The translations under genes and the position numbers were made by a program. This document shows, piece by piece, positions 1,713 through 20,046 of a stretch of DNA of 32,240 bases. The notes below the pieces were generated by a model. It was not told the DNA's origin. It worked only from the letters and a program-made list of their open reading frames with translations, and did no database searches. The stretch covers positions 1 to 32,240 of IMG/VR virus record IMGVR_UViG_3300042547_000564, one strand, 5' to 3'. The stretch comes from a virus. The number at the start of each line of letters is the position of its first letter. The stretch's first letter is position 1.

Positions 1713-2713
1713 TAGAAAAATTAACTACACTTTTAGAAACTGAAGTCCCTGAAACAGCTTGGCTTTGGCCACCTATTCAACAGGCTTCACCTACAGTTAT
1801 AAAACCAGCTGTGTATAAAGATAAAAAGTCTAGCAAAGGTCAATACAAGTTAGTTATGTTTGTACCAGACCCACAAATTGGATACAGAAAGTATGAAGAC
1901 GGTACATTAGACCCGTTTCATGACGAGGCCGCAATTGACGTTCACTTTCAATTATTATCGTATTTAGAAGCAAAATATGGTGTAGATGAAATTATTCATT
2001 TAGGAGATTTTTTAGATTTACCGACTATGGGTAAGTATGCCCAAGAAGAAATGTTCGCACACACAGTACAACCAGCTATAGATTACGGACATCAGTTGTT
2101 AGCTAAACAAAGAGCAACTTGTCCAAATGCAAAAATTGTTTTAATTGAAGGTAACCATGATTGTCGTATGAGTAAGTTTATTACTATGAACGCCATGGCA
2201 TCTAAAGGTATTAAAAGGGCTATGCCAAAGCCAGATTCTTGGCCTGTCATGTCTATTCCTTATTTACTCAGATTAGACGAATTAAAGGTCAAGTATATTG
2301 GCGCCTATCCAGCAGGAGAGTATTGGTTAAATAAAAGTCTACGAGCTATCCACGGAACCAGCGTTCGCTCTGGGGGTTCAACAGCCAGTGCGTATGTAAA
2401 CAAGAATCCTCACATTTCTACAATTTTTGGACACGCACACAGACAGGAGATGCAATATAAAACTGTACATGACCAAGACGGTCCCATCAGAAGCGTTTCA
2501 GCAAGTCCAGGGTGTTTATGCCGTGTGGACGGAGCAGTCCCTTCTTATGGCAGTGGCCTTAGTGAGCAAGGCCGTCCAGTAAAGCATTGGGAAGATTGGC
2601 AACAAGGAGTTATGATTGGCTGGATTAGGGAAGATGGCCATTTTATACTGCAGCCAATTAACATTTTAGATGGTTGGACGGTTCACGAAGGAAAAGAGTT
2701 TACCGCTAACTAA
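1691..2713 (+). CDS. Calcineurin-like metallophosphoesterase
   Basis: The 340-residue protein carries the phosphoesterase motifs in order: PDPQIG near residue 59 (Asp of motif I, with Gln in place of the usual His), GDFLD at 105-109, GNHD at 154-157, and GHAHR near residue 250. These residues bind two metal ions and hydrolyse phosphomono- or diesters; phage members are usually assigned to DNA repair or nucleotide turnover, but the substrate is unknown. GAGGGAG touches the ATG at 1691, so the in-frame TTG at 1697, with a normal 6-base gap, may be the true start. It overlaps the upstream gene. Confidence 0.9.
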   Translation: MHLSSELVEKLTTLLETEVPETAWLWPPIQQASPTVIKPAVYKDKKSSKGQYKLVMFVPDPQIGYRKYEDGTLDPFHDEAAIDVHFQLLSYLEAKYGVDEIIHLGDFLDLPTMGKYAQEEMFAHTVQPAIDYGHQLLAKQRATCPNAKIVLIEGNHDCRMSKFITMNAMASKGIKRAMPKPDSWPVMSIPYLLRLDELKVKYIGAYPAGEYWLNKSLRAIHGTSVRSGGSTASAYVNKNPHISTIFGHAHRQEMQYKTVHDQDGPIRSVSASPGCLCRVDGAVPSYGSGLSEQGRPVKHWEDWQQGVMIGWIREDGHFILQPINILDGWTVHEGKEFTAN

Positions 2714-2727
2714 CGTTCTGATAGGCG

Positions 2728-2733
2728 TATTAT
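2728..2733 (+). promoter_or_regulatory. Candidate -10 box of a leaderless transcript
   Basis: TATTAT lies exactly six bases before the ATG at 2740 and no Shine-Dalgarno is present. This spacing would place the transcription start on the A of the start codon, as in actinobacterial leaderless mRNAs. No clear -35 is visible. Confidence 0.5.
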
Positions 2734-2739
2734 GTATGT

Positions 2740-3267
2740 ATGCCAGGTACCCATCAGAATGTACAGAGTCTCGGAGCTTCGGGACTCTATGGAACTTACA
2801 CTAATTACGGTGGCGGCGGTGTTCCTGTTGCTCGTTCTGAGCTCGACTATTTACGTATGGGTGTGGGTCGAGAACCTTCCGCAGAGTATCCAGATGGGTA
2901 CCTAGGCACTATACGTTCACGACGTGACGACAGAGGCCTTGCTAACGGAACTTCTGACCGCGTCTTAGATAAAATGAAACAACGTGTAGGACAACGTTCC
3001 TACCAACGTGGAGTGCATCGCGGAGAACGCATTGACCCATCAGATTATTATTATCCTTCTGGTTTAGATAGAGACCGTGGAATTAAAAGACAAATGGCTG
3101 CCGCTCGTCGCGGAGACCTTGTACCTAGAAACGCACCAGTATCTAAACTAGCACCTGCACCTCATTTAGTAAATGATGGTAAAGCAAATACAAAACACAA
3201 CGCTCCATATGAAGTAAACCAACGACGCGTTGACCAAATTTCTAGATTAAAGCCTGGGTGGAATTAA
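2740..3267 (+). CDS. Hypothetical phage protein, Arg/Tyr/Gly-rich
   Basis: This 175-residue protein has no recognised domain. It is rich in Gly, Tyr and Arg (TYTNYGGGGVPVARSELDY, RGVHRGERIDPSDYYYPSG), suggesting a disordered, basic, possibly virion-associated protein. The stop overlaps the ATG of the next gene by one base (TAATG). The start has no Shine-Dalgarno and appears leaderless. It heads an array of small coupled genes that runs to 5317. Confidence 0.75.
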   Translation: MPGTHQNVQSLGASGLYGTYTNYGGGGVPVARSELDYLRMGVGREPSAEYPDGYLGTIRSRRDDRGLANGTSDRVLDKMKQRVGQRSYQRGVHRGERIDPSDYYYPSGLDRDRGIKRQMAAARRGDLVPRNAPVSKLAPAPHLVNDGKANTKHNAPYEVNQRRVDQISRLKPGWN

Positions 3268-7406: not shown

Positions 7407-7868
7407 GTGTCAATTATATGTTTTATGGACGGTGTTTTAAGAACCGATACTAAAGTACCAATTTTTGAAGGTATTTCTGTTTACAGAGCTTTAAACAACG
7501 GAACTAAAGTTGTATTAGGCGTAGATGATGAAAAAGAAGCATCTAGATGGTGTAGAGAACACAGGTTTACAGAGTTAGATGGTTTTATTGACAATACTGG
7601 TTTAGAAAGCGTAGAACCAGATAAAAAAGATTTTGCTAAAGTCCAAAAACTTCAAGCACAAGGCCCTATATTTTTAGTAATTACCTCTGATTTAGAATTG
7701 GCTAAATTATGTATAGAAAACGGAATAAGAGTATTTCTATTTCTACACCCTAAGTACTTAAGTCACAAGTTTAGACCAGATGGGCGTGAAGGACGACGTA
7801 GTTGGGAAGACATTCAAGGCGAGCTAGATAGACAGGTTCAGCTTATTGCCGAGGACCCACGTATATGA
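7407..7868 (+). CDS. HAD-like protein with altered nucleophile motif
   Basis: The 153-residue product starts at GTG 7407 with GGAG upstream. Its N-terminus, SIICFMDGVLRTD, aligns with HAD motif I (DxDG(T/V)), but the first Asp, the usual phosphoryl-accepting nucleophile, is replaced by Phe. A later LVITSDLELAKLCIENGIRV resembles motif II and the following helix of small HAD phosphatases. The protein is either a degenerate, non-catalytic HAD or an enzyme working differently. It overlaps the next gene by four bases (ATGA). Confidence 0.65.
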   Translation: MSIICFMDGVLRTDTKVPIFEGISVYRALNNGTKVVLGVDDEKEASRWCREHRFTELDGFIDNTGLESVEPDKKDFAKVQKLQAQGPIFLVITSDLELAKLCIENGIRVFLFLHPKYLSHKFRPDGREGRRSWEDIQGELDRQVQLIAEDPRI

Positions 7869-9331
7869 ACATAGTTTATTTAGGTGCAGAGGTTCCTAGC
7901 AATAGAACTATTTTGACTGCAGCTGGAGCTAGCTGCATGGGAGTCAGCTTCTGGGGCCTTCAAAGACGTGGCATGCCTAAAACGATAAAATACGAGCTAA
8001 AAAATTATTTTCCAGACAACGTCAGGCTTTTTTTAAATGCTGGAATACCATTTAAACGAGATTTCCTTCAAGCTGAGTTAGCTGACTTTGCAGCTGATTA
8101 CGAAGCGTTTGTAGCTGAGAACTTAGACAGGATTGAGGGGTTTACTGAGGTAGACCACCCACAGCTTACCCAGTTGTTCATAGACGAGCAGCGAGTTACC
8201 AGTTGGTCCGATGTGCCAGAGGAAAAGTTCTGGCCTGTATGGCATGGAGAGGACTTAGAGAGCCTTGCAGTTCGGTATTTAAACGTAGCTTTGCCTGGAA
8301 ATTTAATTGAAAATGAAACCAGTTTGTCAGCAAAGACTAGGCGACTCAGTACCATACACGGAACTACTTTCCATGCTTTGGCTAGCGCCAAGCCAGACAA
8401 CCTGCGACAGGTACCTGTAGAGACCGCTAGCACCCTTTCTTGGCTATCCCCCATGATGCGTGGAGAAACGATTGTTTGGGATGGAACAAAACTGCTTCGT
8501 TATCCTAAGCGTATGAAAGAACAATCACGCCCTAGATACAAGTCCATATACGAGCGGGCTGGTCTAGATTTCGATAGGATACTGGCAGACGACGCAGTAG
8601 AAATATCAAAGCTTGCTGTTTGGTCTTACCAACAATACGAGGATTGGCATCGTCGATTAGGAGAGAACGTAGTAACTATGAGTGATGAACTAGTACCCCA
8701 ACAAAATGCGGAAACACCCCCTGCTGAAGTTACTCCGAGGGGGGTTGGTATGCGGAAACTTGAACAACGTAAACCAGAAGAAATGGGTGTTTTACCCGTG
8801 CTTGGAGTAGAGGTTCAGAGAGTACTTGAACCCGATGATGACGGCAACATGGTTATTAAAGATGTCACCACACTAAGGTCCAATAGCACTAGTTTGCGTG
8901 TATGCGATACGTGCTTTGTTGCAGCTAACTGCCCTGCTTTTAAACCACAAAACACCTGTGCTTTTAACTTACCAGTAGAGGTTAAAACTAAAGAGCAGTT
9001 GAAGTCTTTGATTAACGCTTTACTTGAAATGCAGGGCCAAAGAGTGGCTTTCGCTAAGTTTAGCGAAGATTTGAACGGCGGATACCCCGACCCAAACGTC
9101 GGACAAGAGATGGACAGATTCTTTAAAATGTTAAAAACTATTAAAGATTTGGACGACTCACGAGAGTTTATTCGTATGACTGTAGAGCGTCAAGGAGCTG
9201 GTGGAGTACTATCTGCCATCTTCGGAGACAGGGCTCAAACTCTTCGAGAATTACCAAATGAAGGATTAAACGAAAGCAAAACTAACGAGATTATTAAGCA
9301 GATTACGGACACAGACAAGGAGAACTCGTAG
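7865..9331 (+). CDS. Large phage protein: TIM-barrel (TGT/DpdA-like) N-terminus plus C-terminal Cys cluster
   Basis: The 488-residue product has two parts. Residues 1-150 (MNIVYLGAEVPSNRTILTAA..., VRLFLNAGIPF, then KFWPVWHGEDLESLAVRYLN) resemble the layout of phage TIM-barrel proteins related to tRNA-guanine transglycosylase/DpdA. The usual DSG(G/A)F signature is NAGIPF here, so the catalytic Asp is lost. Residues 347-365 hold four cysteines (C347, C350, C356, C365), a probable zinc site, followed by helices like those of small DNA-binding or terminase-type proteins. The relationship is from memory of family patterns, so the name is tentative. Confidence 0.55.
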   Translation: MNIVYLGAEVPSNRTILTAAGASCMGVSFWGLQRRGMPKTIKYELKNYFPDNVRLFLNAGIPFKRDFLQAELADFAADYEAFVAENLDRIEGFTEVDHPQLTQLFIDEQRVTSWSDVPEEKFWPVWHGEDLESLAVRYLNVALPGNLIENETSLSAKTRRLSTIHGTTFHALASAKPDNLRQVPVETASTLSWLSPMMRGETIVWDGTKLLRYPKRMKEQSRPRYKSIYERAGLDFDRILADDAVEISKLAVWSYQQYEDWHRRLGENVVTMSDELVPQQNAETPPAEVTPRGVGMRKLEQRKPEEMGVLPVLGVEVQRVLEPDDDGNMVIKDVTTLRSNSTSLRVCDTCFVAANCPAFKPQNTCAFNLPVEVKTKEQLKSLINALLEMQGQRVAFAKFSEDLNGGYPDPNVGQEMDRFFKMLKTIKDLDDSREFIRMTVERQGAGGVLSAIFGDRAQTLRELPNEGLNESKTNEIIKQITDTDKENS

Positions 9332-9748: not shown

Positions 9749-11788
9749 ATGGCATTTTCTTTTAAATTAGCAAACGAGTTCGTAGACGGATACCGAGCAA
9801 AGCCAGTCCCTTGGGGTTATAAAGATGCGGCAGGTAACTCGGTAGGAGAGGTAACTTTCCTTCGAACTTATTCTAGATTAAAAGAAGATGGAACCAAAGA
9901 GACTTGGGTTGATGTATGCGAGCGCATAGTCAACGGCATGTATTCCTTACAGAAGGACCACTGCAAGTCTAGCCGACTTCCTTGGAACGATTCAAAGGCA
10001 CAAGCCTCTGCTAAAGAAGCCTTTGACCGATTGTTTAATTTTAAGTGGACACCCCCAGGCCGAGGTCTGTGGATGATGGGCACACCAGTAGTTAACGAAC
10101 AAAAGAACAGTGCAGCTTTGCAGAACTGTGCATTTGTGTCCACAAGTGAGATGACTAAACTAAACCCAGCAAAACCATTTGCGTTTTTAATGGAAGCCAG
10201 CATGCTAGGTGTTGGAGTGGGATTTGACAGCAAAGGCGCAGACAAAGAGTTTACTATTTACAAGCCGTTGGCTTCAGATGCCGAGACAGTGATTGCGGAT
10301 ACCAGAGAAGGTTGGGTTGATTCACTAAGCCAATTACTAAACTCATATTTAAAACCTGAACAACCAATGCCTAAATTCGATTATTCGCAAATTAGACTAG
10401 CTGGGGAACCCATTAAAACATTTGGAGGTACAGCTGCTGGGCCGGGGCCGCTGAAGAGACTTCACGAGTCTATTAATAAACTGTTTAATAGCAGAGAAGG
10501 AAATACTTTAACCCGAATTGATATTGCTGATATAGGAAATTTAATAGGAGTTTGCGTTGTGTCGGGCAACGTACGCCGCTCAGCTGAGCTCTTGCTTGGT
10601 AAGGTTGATGACGAGGACTTCTTGAATCTTAAGAACGCTGAGGTATTTCCAGAGCGTAACTCCTATGACCCTAAGAATCCAGGGTGGGCTTGGATGTCCA
10701 ACAACTCTGTAGAGGTAGGCGTTGGCGATGACTTGTCTAAAATTGTTGATGGCATTAGGTTAAACGGAGAACCTGGAGTTATTTGGATGGACGTAACTCG
10801 CAAGTATGGTCGCCTTATTGACCCACCTAACAATAAAGACTGGCGAGCCGCTGGTTACAATCCTTGTGCTGAACAGTCTTTAGAATCATTTGAGTGTTGC
10901 ACACTTGTAGAAACGTATTTAAATAGACATGACAGTCTTGAAGATTTTAAGAGAACTCTTAAGTTTGCCTATCTATACGCCAAGACTGTTACGCTTCTCC
11001 CAACTCATTGGGAAGAAACCAACGCAATCATGCAACGTAACCGTCGTATAGGAACTTCTATCTCTGGTATCGCTAACTTTGCTGACAGAAAAGGTGTACC
11101 TGTCCTTCGTGAATGGATGGACACAGGCTATTCAGTTATTCAAGGGTATGACAAGCTTTACTCAGAGTGGCTCGGTATCCGTGAATCAATTAAGATGACA
11201 ACAGTAAAGCCTTCGGGAACTGTGTCAATCTTGGCTGGAGAATCTCCAGGAGTTCATTGGACTCCAGGCGGTCAATACTTCTTAAGAGCAATCAGGTTTA
11301 GTAATGAAGACCCAATGCTTCCCCTATTCACTATGGCTAACTATACTGTTGAGCCAGCAAGTGAATCTCCCAACACTACTTCTGTTGTGTTCTTCCCAGT
11401 AGAGTCTATGGCTAAAAGGTCTGAGAAAGATGTAACTATCTTTGAGAAGATGTCGTTGGCTTCTATGGCTCAACGCCATTGGAGCGATAACTCAGTTTCA
11501 GTTACAGTTTCGTTCAATCAAGAGACTGAAGGAGAGCATGTAGGAACTGTGCTGCACATGTTTGATGGCCAGCTGAAGACAGTCTCCTTCCTTCCTATGG
11601 GAAATACTATTTACCCACAAATGCCTTATACTCAAATAACAAAACAGGATTATGAGGAGTATGTATTTAAGTTAATGCCAATTGATTTTGCTGGCGTCTA
11701 TGCTGGCCTGGCCGCCGATGCAATTGGAGAGGCTTATTGCACAACAGACGCTTGTGAGATAAGCTTTATTAAGAAGGAGAATAAATGA
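9749..11788 (+). CDS. nrdJ: Adenosylcobalamin-dependent ribonucleoside-triphosphate reductase (class II, monomeric)
   Basis: The 679-residue enzyme reduces ribonucleotides (probably triphosphates) to deoxyribonucleotides using an adenosylcobalamin-generated radical. Key residues are visible. NPCAEQ at 371-376 gives C373 and E375. FECC places the radical Cys at C384, eleven residues on as in the Lactobacillus leichmannii enzyme. C127 in LQNCAFV is the partner of C373 equivalents. C664 and C669 in YCTTDACE form the C-terminal reductant pair. Length is slightly shorter than the about 739 residues of the Lactobacillus enzyme. It is coupled to nrdH by an ATGA overlap and supplies dNTPs for phage replication without oxygen dependence. 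Confidence 0.95.
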   Translation: MAFSFKLANEFVDGYRAKPVPWGYKDAAGNSVGEVTFLRTYSRLKEDGTKETWVDVCERIVNGMYSLQKDHCKSSRLPWNDSKAQASAKEAFDRLFNFKWTPPGRGLWMMGTPVVNEQKNSAALQNCAFVSTSEMTKLNPAKPFAFLMEASMLGVGVGFDSKGADKEFTIYKPLASDAETVIADTREGWVDSLSQLLNSYLKPEQPMPKFDYSQIRLAGEPIKTFGGTAAGPGPLKRLHESINKLFNSREGNTLTRIDIADIGNLIGVCVVSGNVRRSAELLLGKVDDEDFLNLKNAEVFPERNSYDPKNPGWAWMSNNSVEVGVGDDLSKIVDGIRLNGEPGVIWMDVTRKYGRLIDPPNNKDWRAAGYNPCAEQSLESFECCTLVETYLNRHDSLEDFKRTLKFAYLYAKTVTLLPTHWEETNAIMQRNRRIGTSISGIANFADRKGVPVLREWMDTGYSVIQGYDKLYSEWLGIRESIKMTTVKPSGTVSILAGESPGVHWTPGGQYFLRAIRFSNEDPMLPLFTMANYTVEPASESPNTTSVVFFPVESMAKRSEKDVTIFEKMSLASMAQRHWSDNSVSVTVSFNQETEGEHVGTVLHMFDGQLKTVSFLPMGNTIYPQMPYTQITKQDYEEYVFKLMPIDFAGVYAGLAADAIGEAYCTTDACEISFIKKENK

Positions 11789-13577: not shown

Positions 13578-15500
13578 TCAGCGAGAGGAACGCAAGCGTT
13601 TCCGCACAATGTCTTTGGCGACTTTGACAAGCCCTCTAGGGTCAGCAATCGCCCTGAATACCTGCGCTCCATGAGAGAGTTGCTCTATCGGCATGTATGG
13701 CTCACCAAGAAATACCATTACAGTAGTTGTTCCCATGTCGTTAAGGCGTTGGATTATTTCATCACCTTCATAGAAGCCACCGTCAGTAAGCATAATAACA
13801 AGCTTGGTAGGCTTGATACTTGCCTTCATAATTCTTTCGGTTTCTACCAATGCGAAGTGAGGATTAGTTCCACCACTACAGTCGAGTGACTTGTAATCAG
13901 ACTTGGCTTTCTCATCACCGTCATAGAGAACTTTGGAATTGTGGTTGTATGACAAGATAGTTACACGACCTTGTATTTTCTCAATGGCTCGCTTAATCAC
14001 CCAACCTGCTCGGGATACTGCGTCAATGTCACGATACATAGAGCCTGACTTATCTACTAACAAGACTGCCTCAATCTCGTGGTTGTCGTTGCCCTGCTCC
14101 CAACGGTCGAACAGTTTGTTTATGTCATTTATGTTTGCGTTCATGGCTCGCTTCTTGTTAAGGCGACCACTTGGCTTCTCCAATCCCCATGCTGGGTCTG
14201 CCTCAATGCGTAAGCGTTCTAGTTCTGTTGCGAACGCTCTGACCGTTGCTACATCTCCGCCCGTAGGACTTTTGAGGGGAGCGTTCTGCTTTGTAAGAAT
14301 TGTCTTATTAGCATTTGATTTACTAATTGACTTTTGTGTTTCCTTAATTTTATTTATTACATCACTATTATTCTTGGCACGGTTGACCTCATCAGTCAAT
14401 CTATCCAATGCGTCTTGCTGGCGTTCCGCTTGCTCTGCTTTAGGCAAGTCTGTTTCATCGTTGCCACCGTGTCCGTGTGAGTGGTTCTTGTCCTCAGGGT
14501 TTAGGTTGGGGTCGGTTTCAGGGTCGCTTATGTTTAGTGCTTCCTGCTCCTTGCCTGTTTGAGGGCGACCGTTCTTTAGTGGACTGCGAGAGCCACAACC
14601 GTTTGGTGTATCTGTTCCCTCAGGAACTAATGGACTGAACTCTGTAATTATTTCTTTGGCAATAGCGTAGTCACGAGGAAATACTAGAGTGCGGTATTTA
14701 TTTATTAAGTAATAGACTTTCTTTGCTTGCTCTAGTCCGTGCTTCTCAGCATAAAGCTTGCCAATACTGGTTCGACAATCGTATGAGAAATACTTACGAC
14801 CCGCTAACAAGATAAAACTATCGCCAAGTCGTTCACCACTATTCCTAATAATGTATTCCCCAAGAGTTGCTAACAAGAAGTTTCTAGTAGCAGGGTATTT
14901 AGTTACCAAGAAGGTTTCGGCACGGTTGTCCTCTAGTATGTTAAAACTGGTTTGATAATTGTTTTCTTTGACCCACGCACCTAAGTCTGAACCAATGCGG
15001 GGTGAATAGAGGAGATGAGCGACTTCATGGAAGTTAAGCCCATGTAATCCTATTAAAGTATTTTCATCAACGCCGTTAATAATACTTTCGTTAAAAGAAA
15101 TAACTTTACCGTCATTCCAAGCAGGGGCTTCCACTCCGTCTGCTGGTGTTCCAATGCGAACCTCAATGTCCAAGCCACCTGTCAAGATACGGTCGGCTTT
15201 CTGATACACGGCGCAGTAACTATCTAACAAGTTATTCTTGACAGTTAGTTTCTGTTGCTTGTCCTCAGCAATTTCTTTGAGGGTTTCTTGGAACTCCTCA
15301 CGAAGGGCTTGATACTCCTCATGGTTCTGTTCACGCAAGGTTGCTATGTCAACACCTGAGGACTTAGCAAGTTCATCAAGTTCTTGATAATTTTTCTCAC
15401 GATAAGTTGGGTTATTCTCACGCAACCATGCGTTCCACTCCGTATCTACTTCTTGCCAAGATAGTTGAGCGGTGAGTTCTCGTAATGTTCTTTTAGCCAT
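13578..15500 (-). CDS. VWA-domain protein with metallopeptidase-like N-terminus (CobT/DUF2201-like)
   Basis: The 640-residue protein has a LNFHEVAHLLYSPR segment with HEVAH at 158-162, the zinc-binding HExxH signature. A charged Asn/Glu/Lys-rich linker (about residues 290-420) follows. The C-terminal VWA domain carries the metal-ion-dependent site DKSGS at 483-487, GGTNP and LTDGG. This layout resembles DUF2201 or CobT-type proteins, which act with MoxR-class AAA+ ATPases. The start overlaps the stop of the ATPase gene by 8 bases, so the two form a functional pair. The phage role is not known; remodelling of a protein complex is inferred from the family. Confidence 0.85.
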   Translation of the reverse strand: MAKRTLRELTAQLSWQEVDTEWNAWLRENNPTYREKNYQELDELAKSSGVDIATLREQNHEEYQALREEFQETLKEIAEDKQQKLTVKNNLLDSYCAVYQKADRILTGGLDIEVRIGTPADGVEAPAWNDGKVISFNESIINGVDENTLIGLHGLNFHEVAHLLYSPRIGSDLGAWVKENNYQTSFNILEDNRAETFLVTKYPATRNFLLATLGEYIIRNSGERLGDSFILLAGRKYFSYDCRTSIGKLYAEKHGLEQAKKVYYLINKYRTLVFPRDYAIAKEIITEFSPLVPEGTDTPNGCGSRSPLKNGRPQTGKEQEALNISDPETDPNLNPEDKNHSHGHGGNDETDLPKAEQAERQQDALDRLTDEVNRAKNNSDVINKIKETQKSISKSNANKTILTKQNAPLKSPTGGDVATVRAFATELERLRIEADPAWGLEKPSGRLNKKRAMNANINDINKLFDRWEQGNDNHEIEAVLLVDKSGSMYRDIDAVSRAGWVIKRAIEKIQGRVTILSYNHNSKVLYDGDEKAKSDYKSLDCSGGTNPHFALVETERIMKASIKPTKLVIMLTDGGFYEGDEIIQRLNDMGTTTVMVFLGEPYMPIEQLSHGAQVFRAIADPRGLVKVAKDIVRKRLRSSR

Positions 15501-16848
15501 TTATTGCCACCTCATCTACCTGAGTTGGTGCTACCTCAACAGTAATGCCAAGTTCTACACCAATGTTCGGCTTGTATGTATCTAATACAAGTTTGACTGC
15601 TTCTCGCTCCTCATCAAGGAAGCCATTTACATAAGAGGAAATGGCGTAATCCAAGTTTAGGTTGGTAGCGTTCTTAATAAAGTTGGCTAGACCACGAGTT
15701 GAGATAGGAGTATCAAGGTCGCCCTTGTTAGATAACTCCCTGAGTTTGGTAGCCATTTCTAGCAACGCTTTGTTCTTGATTAGTTTGCTTTCGATAGAGT
15801 GGTCGTATGGGAAATCTAACTTATGGTGAAATCTATCTACCCAAGCTTGATTCATTGGTCGAGTTCCTCTGTAGTTAGGGTTCATGTCAGCAATAATCAA
15901 GAGGTCTTTGTGAGCCTTGATAACTTCACCACCGTTTTCCATAATTTGTATCTCACGGCGGTCGTCAAGTAAGCCGAACAGAATTGTGGTGACACGCTCA
16001 GGCATGAAGTTCACTTCGTTGAGAAGTAGCACTCCACCGTTTCTTACCAAGTCTGTTACAGGACCGTCTTGCCAACGGAAGTGTCCGTCAGGGGTTGGTA
16101 TCCATGAACCGAATAACTGGGTTGGCTCTAAGCCAATATGACTAGAGACATTGTAATAGCGGTAGCCACGAGTGCTTGCGTATCCCAAGACTGACATAGT
16201 TTTTCCGCTACCTGCGTGACCCATGATTAGTATGTTCTCGTTGTTGGTCATGGCGTTGTCATAAATAGCGTATTCGATAAGCCCATTTATTTTTCTGTTT
16301 ATGTATTTCTTAGACCAATCTAATGTTGGAATAGTTGCTAGTTCCATAATTACTGGGCTTGCTCCAACCAATACTGGTGCTTCCTGCTGTTTATGTGCCT
16401 CTGCGCTTACTTCCCTAACAGGCTCGACAGGTTTGGTTAGTGGAGTTAGCACTACAGGACTGTTACGGCGACCGTCTTTGACATAGGAGTTAAGTGTCAT
16501 GTCACCTGCGATTAGTCGAAGGGTTAGGTCAGCGACTACGGCTCGGTGTGTGTCCACAGGCTCGACAGGACTGGTTTGTTCTAAGGCGGTCATGGCTTTG
16601 ACGGCAAGGGTTGTAATCTGACCGACTGCCAAGCCCTCAATGTCCTTGTAAGTAAGTGGCACGGCGACTGGCATGTAAGTCACCATGTCTAGTGGTAGTT
16701 CATCTAAGCAAGTCTGTTTCCAAGCTTGACCACGACCACGGCTTCCGTTTGAGAGGCGGTGATAACACACCACCTCATTTTTGAGAGGAGCGATAAGGCT
16801 TTGCGCCTTGCCCTCATTTGTTTCTGTTTCTACTAATAGAGCAATCAT
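15493..16848 (-). CDS. MoxR/CobS-type AAA+ ATPase
   Basis: With the ATG at 16848 the product is 451 residues. Residues 210-217 are the Walker A motif GHAGSGKT. The Walker B segment VLLLNEVNF at 273-281 has Asn in place of the usual Asp. IIADMNPN is sensor 1 and WVDRF carries a probable arginine finger. The first 200 residues are less conserved. Family members use ATP to load metal or remodel partners with a VWA protein, which is the next gene. A TTG at 16923 would add 25 residues but lacks good support; AAAGGAAA precedes the chosen ATG. Confidence 0.88.
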   Translation of the reverse strand: MIALLVETETNEGKAQSLIAPLKNEVVCYHRLSNGSRGRGQAWKQTCLDELPLDMVTYMPVAVPLTYKDIEGLAVGQITTLAVKAMTALEQTSPVEPVDTHRAVVADLTLRLIAGDMTLNSYVKDGRRNSPVVLTPLTKPVEPVREVSAEAHKQQEAPVLVGASPVIMELATIPTLDWSKKYINRKINGLIEYAIYDNAMTNNENILIMGHAGSGKTMSVLGYASTRGYRYYNVSSHIGLEPTQLFGSWIPTPDGHFRWQDGPVTDLVRNGGVLLLNEVNFMPERVTTILFGLLDDRREIQIMENGGEVIKAHKDLLIIADMNPNYRGTRPMNQAWVDRFHHKLDFPYDHSIESKLIKNKALLEMATKLRELSNKGDLDTPISTRGLANFIKNATNLNLDYAISSYVNGFLDEEREAVKLVLDTYKPNIGVELGITVEVAPTQVDEVAING

Positions 16849-16955
16849 TAGGAGTGGGTTTCCTTTTCGTGTGGGTAGGCAATCGGGTGACTGCCTTGTG
16901 GTCTGAGGGTAGTGGATAGCCAATTAAATAGCGAATTAGGTAATACCTTATTTGA

Positions 16956-16974
16956 TAACGATTAAGTAACGGTT
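16956..16974 (+). promoter_or_regulatory. Octamer direct repeat 1 (candidate operator)
   Basis: TAACGATT, AAG, TAACGGTT: two octamers at 11-bp spacing, about 108 bases upstream of the AAA+ ATPase start. One of six copies in the leftward arm. Confidence 0.6.
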
Positions 16975-17015
16975 TCCTGCTTTTAAGTGACCGAACTGTT
17001 GTGCGAACTGGGTCG

Positions 17016-17072
17016 TCACCTCATCACCTTTGGTGGCGGTGGCGGTGGTGGAGTTTCACCATGCGTGGTCAT
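17016..17072 (-). CDS. Possible 18-residue poly-proline leader peptide
   Basis: The frame MTTHGETPPPPPPPKVMR contains seven consecutive prolines and lies about 170 bases upstream of the AAA+ gene, read in the same direction. Poly-proline stretches stall ribosomes when EF-P is limiting, so it could be an attenuating leader. No clear Shine-Dalgarno is visible and the frame is short, so it may be chance. Confidence 0.25.
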   Translation of the reverse strand: MTTHGETPPPPPPPKVMR

Positions 17073-17496
17073 AAGCAGGGCTTGGCGGTCGTGAGCAATC
17101 CCCCTATTTAATTCCCTGTTTAATCCTCATAGTAATAATAAGAGAGAGAGTAATCGTATTTCCTGAGCAGGGGTGCTACTGGGTAGTAACTACCTATCTG
17201 GCAGGGAAGCCGTAGGTCTGGTCGTATAAATACGGCTCGACAAGTTTGGTAGGCAGTAGCCCAACGAGCGCATTGGCGAGCGCAGGGCGCAGGCTAGGCA
17301 GGCTTGTCGGGCTGGCTGAGCCATGCGCTCGCCATTGGGTTATGTTCCTGTTTAATCCATAGAGGTAACAAGGGGCGCACTCTCTCTGCGCTCGCTCTCT
17401 CTCTTGCTTGGTCAAGCTTGACAGTCCTGTTGTGCTCTCTCTCTCTTTGAGAAAGCGGTAGCACAACGAGCCTCTGCTTGTCAATAGATTCTCCCG

Positions 17497-17515
17497 ATTC
17501 GTTATGAAATCGTTA
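17497..17515 (-). promoter_or_regulatory. Octamer direct repeat 2 (candidate operator)
   Basis: On the minus strand TAACGATT, TCA, TAACGAAT. It sits 16 bases from hairpin H1 and faces the noncoding region upstream of the AAA+ operon. Confidence 0.6.
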
Positions 17516-17531
17516 TAGAGGCTTGACAGGC

Positions 17532-17616
17532 TTGTTTGGGTTGGGCTTAATGGCTATGGCTGGTTTTTAGCAAAACAAGCCGTTCCAGCCATAGCCATTA
17601 AGCCCAACCCAAACAA
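17532..17616. repeat. Long perfect inverted repeat H1 (32-bp arms)
   Basis: Arms at 17532-17563 and 17585-17616 match perfectly over 32 bp with a 21-base loop. The outer end carries TTGTTTGGGTTGG. The inner half (ATGGCTATGGCTGG) is nearly the same as in hairpin H3. Confidence 0.95.
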
Positions 17617-17618
17617 AA

Positions 17619-17646
17619 CTGCCCCGAGTCAGGGGACTCAGGGCAG
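17619..17646 (-). terminator. Leftward terminator of the 17674-18722 unit
   Basis: CTGCCC and GGGCAG close a two-part stem (6 bp plus GAGTC/GACTC, one mismatch). On the minus strand it is followed by TTTTGTTT, which is also the edge of hairpin H1. Confidence 0.85.
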
Positions 17647-17673
17647 GTTTGCTCTCGACTTGGGAAGGGAGAA

Positions 17674-17934
17674 CTATGTGTCTTGCAAAGGCTCGACAAT
17701 TCTGTGTGGTTCTGATGAAAGGCTTTCCATAATGTCGTAGAAGGTTGAGGACGGCTTCTCCTCTGTTGGAACTATCTCATCTACGCTTGTTTCTGCTCCA
17801 TTTGTATAGCCAAGGTTGTCATAGTCAATACCGCTAAGCGCCGTAGCAATCGCAACGGCATGGTCGTGGTCATTTGCTTCAATAACACAGGTGGCTTCGT
17901 GGTGGACAGTAGCCCAAACTTGGTAGAAAGGCAT
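17674..17934 (-). CDS. Small hypothetical protein
   Basis: This 86-residue protein starts MPFYQVWATVHHEATCVIEA with a beta strand, then a helix (HDHAVAIATAL) and an acidic, disordered C-terminal half. The ATG is coupled to the Api92-like gene by TAATG. The strand-helix N-terminus is common in small phage proteins. No function recognised. Confidence 0.75.
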   Translation of the reverse strand: MPFYQVWATVHHEATCVIEANDHDHAVAIATALSGIDYDNLGYTNGAETSVDEIVPTEEKPSSTFYDIMESLSSEPHRIVEPLQDT

Positions 17935-18854: not shown

Positions 18855-18926
18855 TGTTTGGGTCGGTAAGCATAGGTAGTTCGGAGCTGTTCCAGACCTC
18901 CCTACCTATGCTTACCGACCCAAACA
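18855..18926. repeat. Long perfect inverted repeat H2 (25-bp arms)
   Basis: Arms at 18855-18879 and 18902-18926 pair perfectly over 25 bp around a 22-base loop. The outer end is TGTTTGGGTCGG; the inner half is different from H1, H3 and H4. Confidence 0.95.
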
Positions 18927-19967: not shown

Positions 19968-20046
19968 TGTTTGGGTTGGCTACTATGGCTATGGCTGGCG
20001 TGTTCACTAGCGTTCACAGCCATAGCCATAGTAGCCAACCCAAACA
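19968..20046. repeat. Long perfect inverted repeat H3 (30-bp arms)
   Basis: Arms at 19968-19997 and 20017-20046 pair perfectly over 30 bp with a 19-base loop. The outer end is TGTTTGGGTTGG and the inner half ends ATGGCTATGGCTG as in H1. Confidence 0.95.

Follow-up and report, generated by a model that had tools for sequence, protein, structure and literature searches.

Regions without protein genes are usually overlooked in phages. The HK022 put RNA is a factor-independent antitermination leader acting directly on RNA polymerase, and its distance downstream of the early promoters varies, putL lying just past PL and putR about 270 nt beyond the start of PR (PMC9378689). RNA-based origins have been described in prophages of cluster A mycobacteriophages (PMC7157519). 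In actinobacteria, PHO boxes are made up of units of 11 nt with GTTCACC, a GlnR site contains two units of this length (PMC6988585), and an MtrA site is formed by two short repeats five nucleotides apart (PMC5650626).

The stretch of DNA studied here (the window) comprises 32,240 bases of an IMG/VR virus record, with rightward genes at 1–12 kb and from 22.7 kb on, and leftward genes at about 12.4–22.5 kb. Within the leftward block, ahead of a gene pair for an AAA_5 ATPase and a VWA-type protein, a region without protein genes is located, which is a compound regulatory region. It contains a short element, GGCTACTGYC-N33-CCAGAY-N24-palindrome (window 17261–17182, minus strand), whose first block is GGCTACTG. 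This element is conserved, is present in a single copy and lies, in constant sense, between a promoter-like sequence and the operon. The region is read here, with a probability of roughly 0.47, as a noncoding transcription unit of an actinophage lineage that would act on the operon by means of its transcript.

The element resembles put RNA in its length of about 70–95 nt, its variable distance downstream of a promoter (promoters being predicted here) and its operon sense. However, put carries two stem-loops within about 70 nt and is found twice per genome, whereas the element occurs once and has no conserved helices beyond a short palindrome; because the structural definition of put fails, the element was not classed as put. 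RNA-based prophage origins share with this locus a gene-free actinophage region of about 400–670 bp making a noncoding RNA, which for the window is a presumed transcript, but the element uses conserved short blocks instead and no sequence match was found. With regard to parABS, no ParA or ParB match was obtained among the leftward-block proteins scanned around the region.

Phages of Bendigovirus (Gordonia phages Gray and GMA6) carry the same AAA and VWA-type pair, with a gap of about 1 kb containing a promoter-like sequence before the rightward operon to which the pair belongs. They differ in that the GGCTACTG element was found neither by pattern nor by model, and in that the gap is separated from the AAA gene by at least two small genes. 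Their gene-free stretches (L140, positions 1875–3032, in Gray; L142, positions 935–1988, in GMA6) may represent another noncoding RNA; that of Gray also holds repeated GC-rich motifs.

Extent and gene content of the region

The operon downstream of the region is a chaperone-like unit of two genes:

15493–16848, minus strand, AAA_5 ATPase, first operon gene (Pfam AAA_5, E 1.1e-20; start set by homology)
13578–15500, minus strand, VWA-domain protein, second operon gene (weak Pfam VWA_2 match, E 4.8e-5, under the curated cut-off)

The closest cultured relatives of the AAA protein belong to Gordonia phages (Bendigovirus) and to Brevibacterium phage Cantare; for this reason the phage most likely infects an actinobacterium. 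On the plus strand, positions 7865–9331 carry a gene like those for queuine tRNA-ribosyltransferase and positions 9749–11788 one for ribonucleotide reductase.

Because the AAA homologues begin at the ATG at 16848, the gap extends from 16849 to 17673 (825 nt), up to the next leftward gene upstream (17674–17934). The first-pass annotation had described about 0.8 kb free of genes, and indeed no credible protein gene was found between 16848 and 17674; its right limit of 17531, however, cuts through the strongest structure, a hairpin at 17527–17621. Searches of the window for tRNA and tmRNA genes yielded none, and the Rfam search gave no match at or above the gathering score. Weaker Rfam matches were microRNA models fitting the long hairpin by shape and were discarded as not real.

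Two minus-strand open reading frames of 96 and 56 aa in the gap could suggest a hidden small protein gene. The longer one, the largest of the gap (17194–17484, minus strand, TTG start), has no Pfam or PHROG family match, and conservation is confined to short motifs. Moreover, the spacer between these motifs differs by single nucleotides (32, 33 or 34 nt), and the conserved blocks are 40–42 nt apart depending on the relative; since this distance differs, any codon frame is broken. A hidden gene was rejected on this block spacing and is hardly credible.

Read leftward, the region consists of a terminator, a hairpin with 37-bp arms, an 11-nt repeat box (box 1), a predicted promoter (P1) and GA-rich tracts, followed by a second hairpin (17271–17337), the conserved element, a second 11-nt repeat box (box 2) and the AAA gene. 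Given this order of box, promoter, gene-free stretch, box and gene, P1 would serve a noncoding product or a long leader.

The conserved element and its distribution

Relatives were collected through homologues of the AAA protein, at first 10 and then 80 loci, 58 of which had sequence upstream of the AAA gene. In the window the element comprises the following features:

17179–17273, minus strand, conserved element, match to the sequence model (41.2 bits, E 2.6e-11; a near-twin is in the training set)
17254–17261, minus strand, block 1, GGCTACTG (invariant through the selection of the set; in 55/58 relatives)
17216–17221, minus strand, block 2, CCAGAC (32 nt past block 1)
17182–17194, no strand assigned, block 3, palindrome GGTAGTTACTACC (64.5% of cells paired; covariation 0.317 versus 0.167 in shuffled sequences)

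The 55 relatives with GGCTACTG upstream of AAA include phages whose AAA identity is as low as 47%, and block 1 was letter-perfect in relatives with AAA proteins only 47–57% identical to that of the window. In two of the three remaining loci the contig starts too near the gene, and in the third, L110, the element is located 2.2 kb further upstream. As the element set was selected by the GGCTACTG motif, the fair statement of its conservation is the proportion of 55/58 among loci chosen by protein alone.

The 55 elements (CCAGA or TCAGA allowed) were reduced to 39 sequences less than 92% alike. The spacer between blocks 1 and 2 measured 32–34 nt in 38 of them, the exception being L096, with 42 nt through a 9-nt duplication; block 2 reads TCAGA in L092. 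The palindrome follows about 30 nt after the start of CCAGA, and its inner pair alternates between TAG..CTA and TAT..ATA. Block 3 was also considered as a promoter (TATATGATAAG) and discarded, there being no -35 at a usable distance.

The pattern GGCTACTGYC + GGNNTA + CCAGAY was found in 33 stretches among 2.9 million viral contigs. All except one were contigs already obtained through the AAA gene (32/33), and the remaining match, L150, is a fragment of 7.9 kb in which hairpin, boxes and promoters form the same cassette. In about 85,000 prokaryote genomes the pattern matched 12 times, scattered over unrelated phyla and near the estimated chance level. Each of ten phages of 72–98 kb had exactly one element (10/10), and the reversed pattern had none. 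The sequence-only model recovered three diverged copies outside the training set (L110, L029 and L120); applied to five complete cultured phages with the AAA/VWA pair it found no element, an empty answer that alone is weak, although the same model works on the lineage. When the element was compared by Blast with 50,697 phage records, no real match appeared. By these comparisons the element is previously undescribed and nearly exclusive to one lineage of uncultured phages related to actinophages. Since the element keeps its first block letter-perfect at an AAA identity of about 47%, is single-copy and is near lineage-exclusive, its function is directly testable. Its lineage-wide presence in a single copy was beyond the reach of one sequence, as was the recognition of the octamer pair of the first-pass annotation as part of a block-wide set of boxes.

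Predicted promoter, leader and proposed mode of action

Two further features precede the element:

17455–17484, minus strand, predicted promoter P1, TTGACA-18-TGCTACCGC (consensus match only; start expected near 17448)
17271–17337, no strand assigned, hairpin upstream of the conserved element, 22-nt arms (identical in L006)

The -35 TTGACA of P1 and its spacing are retained in L006 and L008. Between the predicted start and the AAA gene there is a leader of about 600 nt carrying no protein gene, which in the comparison with L006 was 98–100% identical at 17188–17363 and 82–94% in the remainder.

The region had been regarded as unusual and probably functional on account of its stems, CT-rich runs and octamer repeats, a view that stands, although its reasons were only partly right. 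Inverted repeats exist at 17271–17337 (86% complementary) and 17429–17467 (78%), as does the exact palindrome at 17182–17194, but general structuredness was overstated. Between the predicted start and AAA, the minus-strand leader folded with a z of -4.0 (60 shuffles), against +0.8 to -4.5 in control stretches of equal length, the -4.5 control itself containing a hairpin; since the leader lies inside the control span, general structure is not the remarkable feature. A longer stretch of the minus strand reached -7.6, with just 20 shuffles. The core of the elements folded a little better in sense (mean z of -1.26) than in antisense (-0.75), with -0.27 in a downstream control, which favours the noncoding transcript. 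The CT-rich runs are real (GA on the transcribed strand), and many leaders of relatives contain GA dinucleotide runs (e.g., L078, positions 1–110), which often fill the -35/-10 spacer. CT runs are present about 100–200 nt downstream in roughly 60% of relatives. A long-range (GA)n:(CU)n closing helix is not claimed; GA runs are also present downstream, and many lineages are without CT runs.

Covariation was sought by RNAalifold, averaged pair probabilities, APC-corrected mutual information and an exhaustive 4-bp helix scan. With these four methods no conserved helix was detected in the elements of the relatives, and the block 3 palindrome alone was supported. Covarying stems, which according to the first-pass annotation would support an RNA, were thus not found apart from one short palindrome that would also fit a DNA-binding site. 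An extended hairpin around GGC-UACU-GCC was attractive in single sequences but was not retained, the values from flank shuffling (p 0.08 and 0.35) being not significant.

The absence of conserved secondary structure apart from the palindrome, and the fixed spacing, which also fits a DNA site, argue against a noncoding RNA. Mainly because only the palindrome covaries, a DNA-level site was kept as a serious rival, possible although not the favoured one: GGCTACTG, CCAGA and the palindrome would be binding sites for a protein of phage or host origin (a regulator, an architectural or a packaging factor), with no RNA role. The rigid spacing of both intervals, the palindrome itself and the lack of RNA stems agree with it. 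So does the situation in L106 and L120, where the nearest promoter-like sequence overlaps block 1 (as judged by eye) and block 1 might not be transcribed. A site on DNA fits less well with the position of the element. An extended -10 promoter was predicted wholly upstream in 19 of the 39 sequences (a match was absent in 20), and its -10 ended anywhere from 4 to 193 nt before block 1, yet the orientation of the element always agrees with that of the genes downstream, and it keeps its place between the promoter-like sequence and the first gene where those genes are different. Four small genes separate it from AAA in L110, and in L029 it lies ahead of other small genes, with no AAA in this 51-kb fragment; these two arrangements indicate that the element belongs to the start of the transcription unit and not to the AAA start codon.

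For the noncoding transcription unit, the following course is proposed. P1, behind the terminator and the long hairpin and beside box 1, would make a leftward transcript, about 600 nt of it without protein, holding a single conserved element (GGCUACUGYC, 33 nt, CCAGAY, about 24 nt and the short palindrome). This transcript could constitute a long 5' leader of the AAA/VWA operon, or it could be an RNA in its own right; both are possible since AAA has its own second box just upstream. An independent RNA would lack a visible 3' end, as no terminator was seen past the element. Since its position is comparable to that of put RNA, the element most likely works at the RNA level, on the transcript, in expression of the operon; it might, for example, load a protein or RNA polymerase so that transcription continues through the long untranslated leader. 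Transcription, RNA-level action and any antitermination role are what we infer from the arrangement of the locus. If the element is an RNA, it would be an actinophage regulatory RNA without conserved stem-loops. More doubtful is the wider proposal of a new family of phage regulatory RNAs, in which a single-copy leader or small RNA, defined by two linear motifs at fixed distance and not by conserved stems, would recruit RNA polymerase or a phage protein and control the AAA/VWA operon across the lineage.

A small RNA, a long leader or an origin had been suggested initially. The presence of a single-copy element between a promoter-like sequence and the operon, in constant sense in about 55 phage contigs, supports a conserved, separately promoted noncoding unit; the suggestion of an origin gained no support and would be a less likely alternative.

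Repeat boxes, DnaA boxes and long hairpins

The repeat boxes of the region are as follows:

17500–17518, plus strand, box 1, 11-nt-period direct repeat CGTTATGAAATCGTTATAG (period 11 enriched in the leaders of relatives)
16954–16971, minus strand, box 2, 11-nt-period direct repeat CGTTACTTAATCGTTATC (just upstream of AAA)

Box 1 corresponds to the octamer pair noticed in the first-pass annotation, which is thus real. A search for repeat boxes gave 9 matches in the window, with 1.9 expected, and CGTTAY-type units were present at six leftward unit starts (16956, 17500, 18835, 19948, 21175 and 22562). Each box of the window closely precedes a gene start except box 1, which is followed by the gene-free stretch and then by another box. 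Repeats with an 11-nt period were detected in 30/39 leaders, versus 4.3 (maximum 7) in shuffled sequences and 6/39 coding stretches.

Two boxes of the window region have at least two direct repeat units of 11 nt, as PHO boxes do, and the boxes thereby resemble the PHO, GlnR and MtrA sites of OmpR-family regulators in being 11-nt-period direct repeats near promoters. The GTTCACC heptamer of PHO boxes occurs in some relatives (L102 with three units), and GTTCAC-type units are present in the leaders of L102, L107 and L116. The units of the window differ in being CGTTAY instead of GTTCACC, and are putative binding sites.

In one subclade, perfect DnaA boxes TTATCCACA are found where other relatives have the 11-nt repeats. 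They number up to 10–11 per phage, nearly all within about 7 kb and mostly on one strand, with 0–1 in the reversed control; the blocks are located at 80.8–87.1 kb in G003, 5.0–11.7 kb in G007 and 41.4–48.6 kb in G013 (L183–L185), the boxes often just after long hairpins. Host DnaA might control the phage promoters of this subclade. The window has no DnaA box. A full-text literature search gave nothing on DnaA boxes at actinophage promoters or on PHO boxes in phages. Judging from the boxes, the promoters of these phages may be coupled to response regulators of the host or, in the DnaA-box subclade, to DnaA; such coupling would link infection to the nutrient or cell-cycle state of the host.

DnaA boxes flank the element on both sides in G003, G007, G011 and G013. 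This could indicate a replication origin, either RNA-primed as in cluster A mycobacteriophages, which shows that RNA-based origins exist in actinophages (PMC7157519), or R-loop based, and the region is single-copy, gene-free and conserved, with a purine-rich predicted transcript. Nevertheless, DnaA boxes are also present at other promoters of the same block and are not specific to the element site. The origins of RedRock, Alma and Gladiator showed no similarity, their closest approach to the block pair having 3–4 mismatches in 13 and the model finding nothing. No clear GC-skew switch was seen at the element, although GC skew is uninformative as an origin test, the block being oriented opposite to the remainder of the genome. 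An origin is accordingly rated as unlikely.

Promoter-like sequences and boxes each occur twice in several relatives, and boxes are present at all promoters of the block, as would be seen if the region were simply a long 5' untranslated region transcribed from tandem promoters, whose motifs would be transcription factor sites without a special role. But while the repeat boxes and DnaA boxes recur throughout the block, the GGCTACTG element is absent from the other promoters, with one copy per genome. An ordinary untranslated region is, on this account, quite improbable.

The upstream end of the region is formed by two structures:

17619–17646, minus strand, intrinsic terminator of the upstream leftward gene (17674–17934), 12-pair stem and T-rich tail
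17527–17621, no strand assigned, long hairpin with 37-nt arms (95% complementary), conserved ends TGTTTGGGTTG / CAACCCAAACA

The long hairpin has a z of about -12, and hairpins of this type occur in three copies in the window, with none expected by chance. The family (window 17533–17615, 18855–18926 and 19968–20046; 47 stretches in IMG/VR) has conserved ends, TGTTTGNGTTG / CAACNCAAACA, and inner stems that are unrelated yet complementary, and is placed in the leftward block between a terminator and the next promoter.

Contig ends cluster within about 750 bp upstream of AAA in 18/58 contigs of relatives. Several of them fall inside or beside the long hairpin (L063, L106 and L107), and G002 resembles a circular genome cut at the region upstream of AAA; the cluster therefore probably reflects assembly breaks at hairpins, rather than physical genome ends or a cos/pac site.
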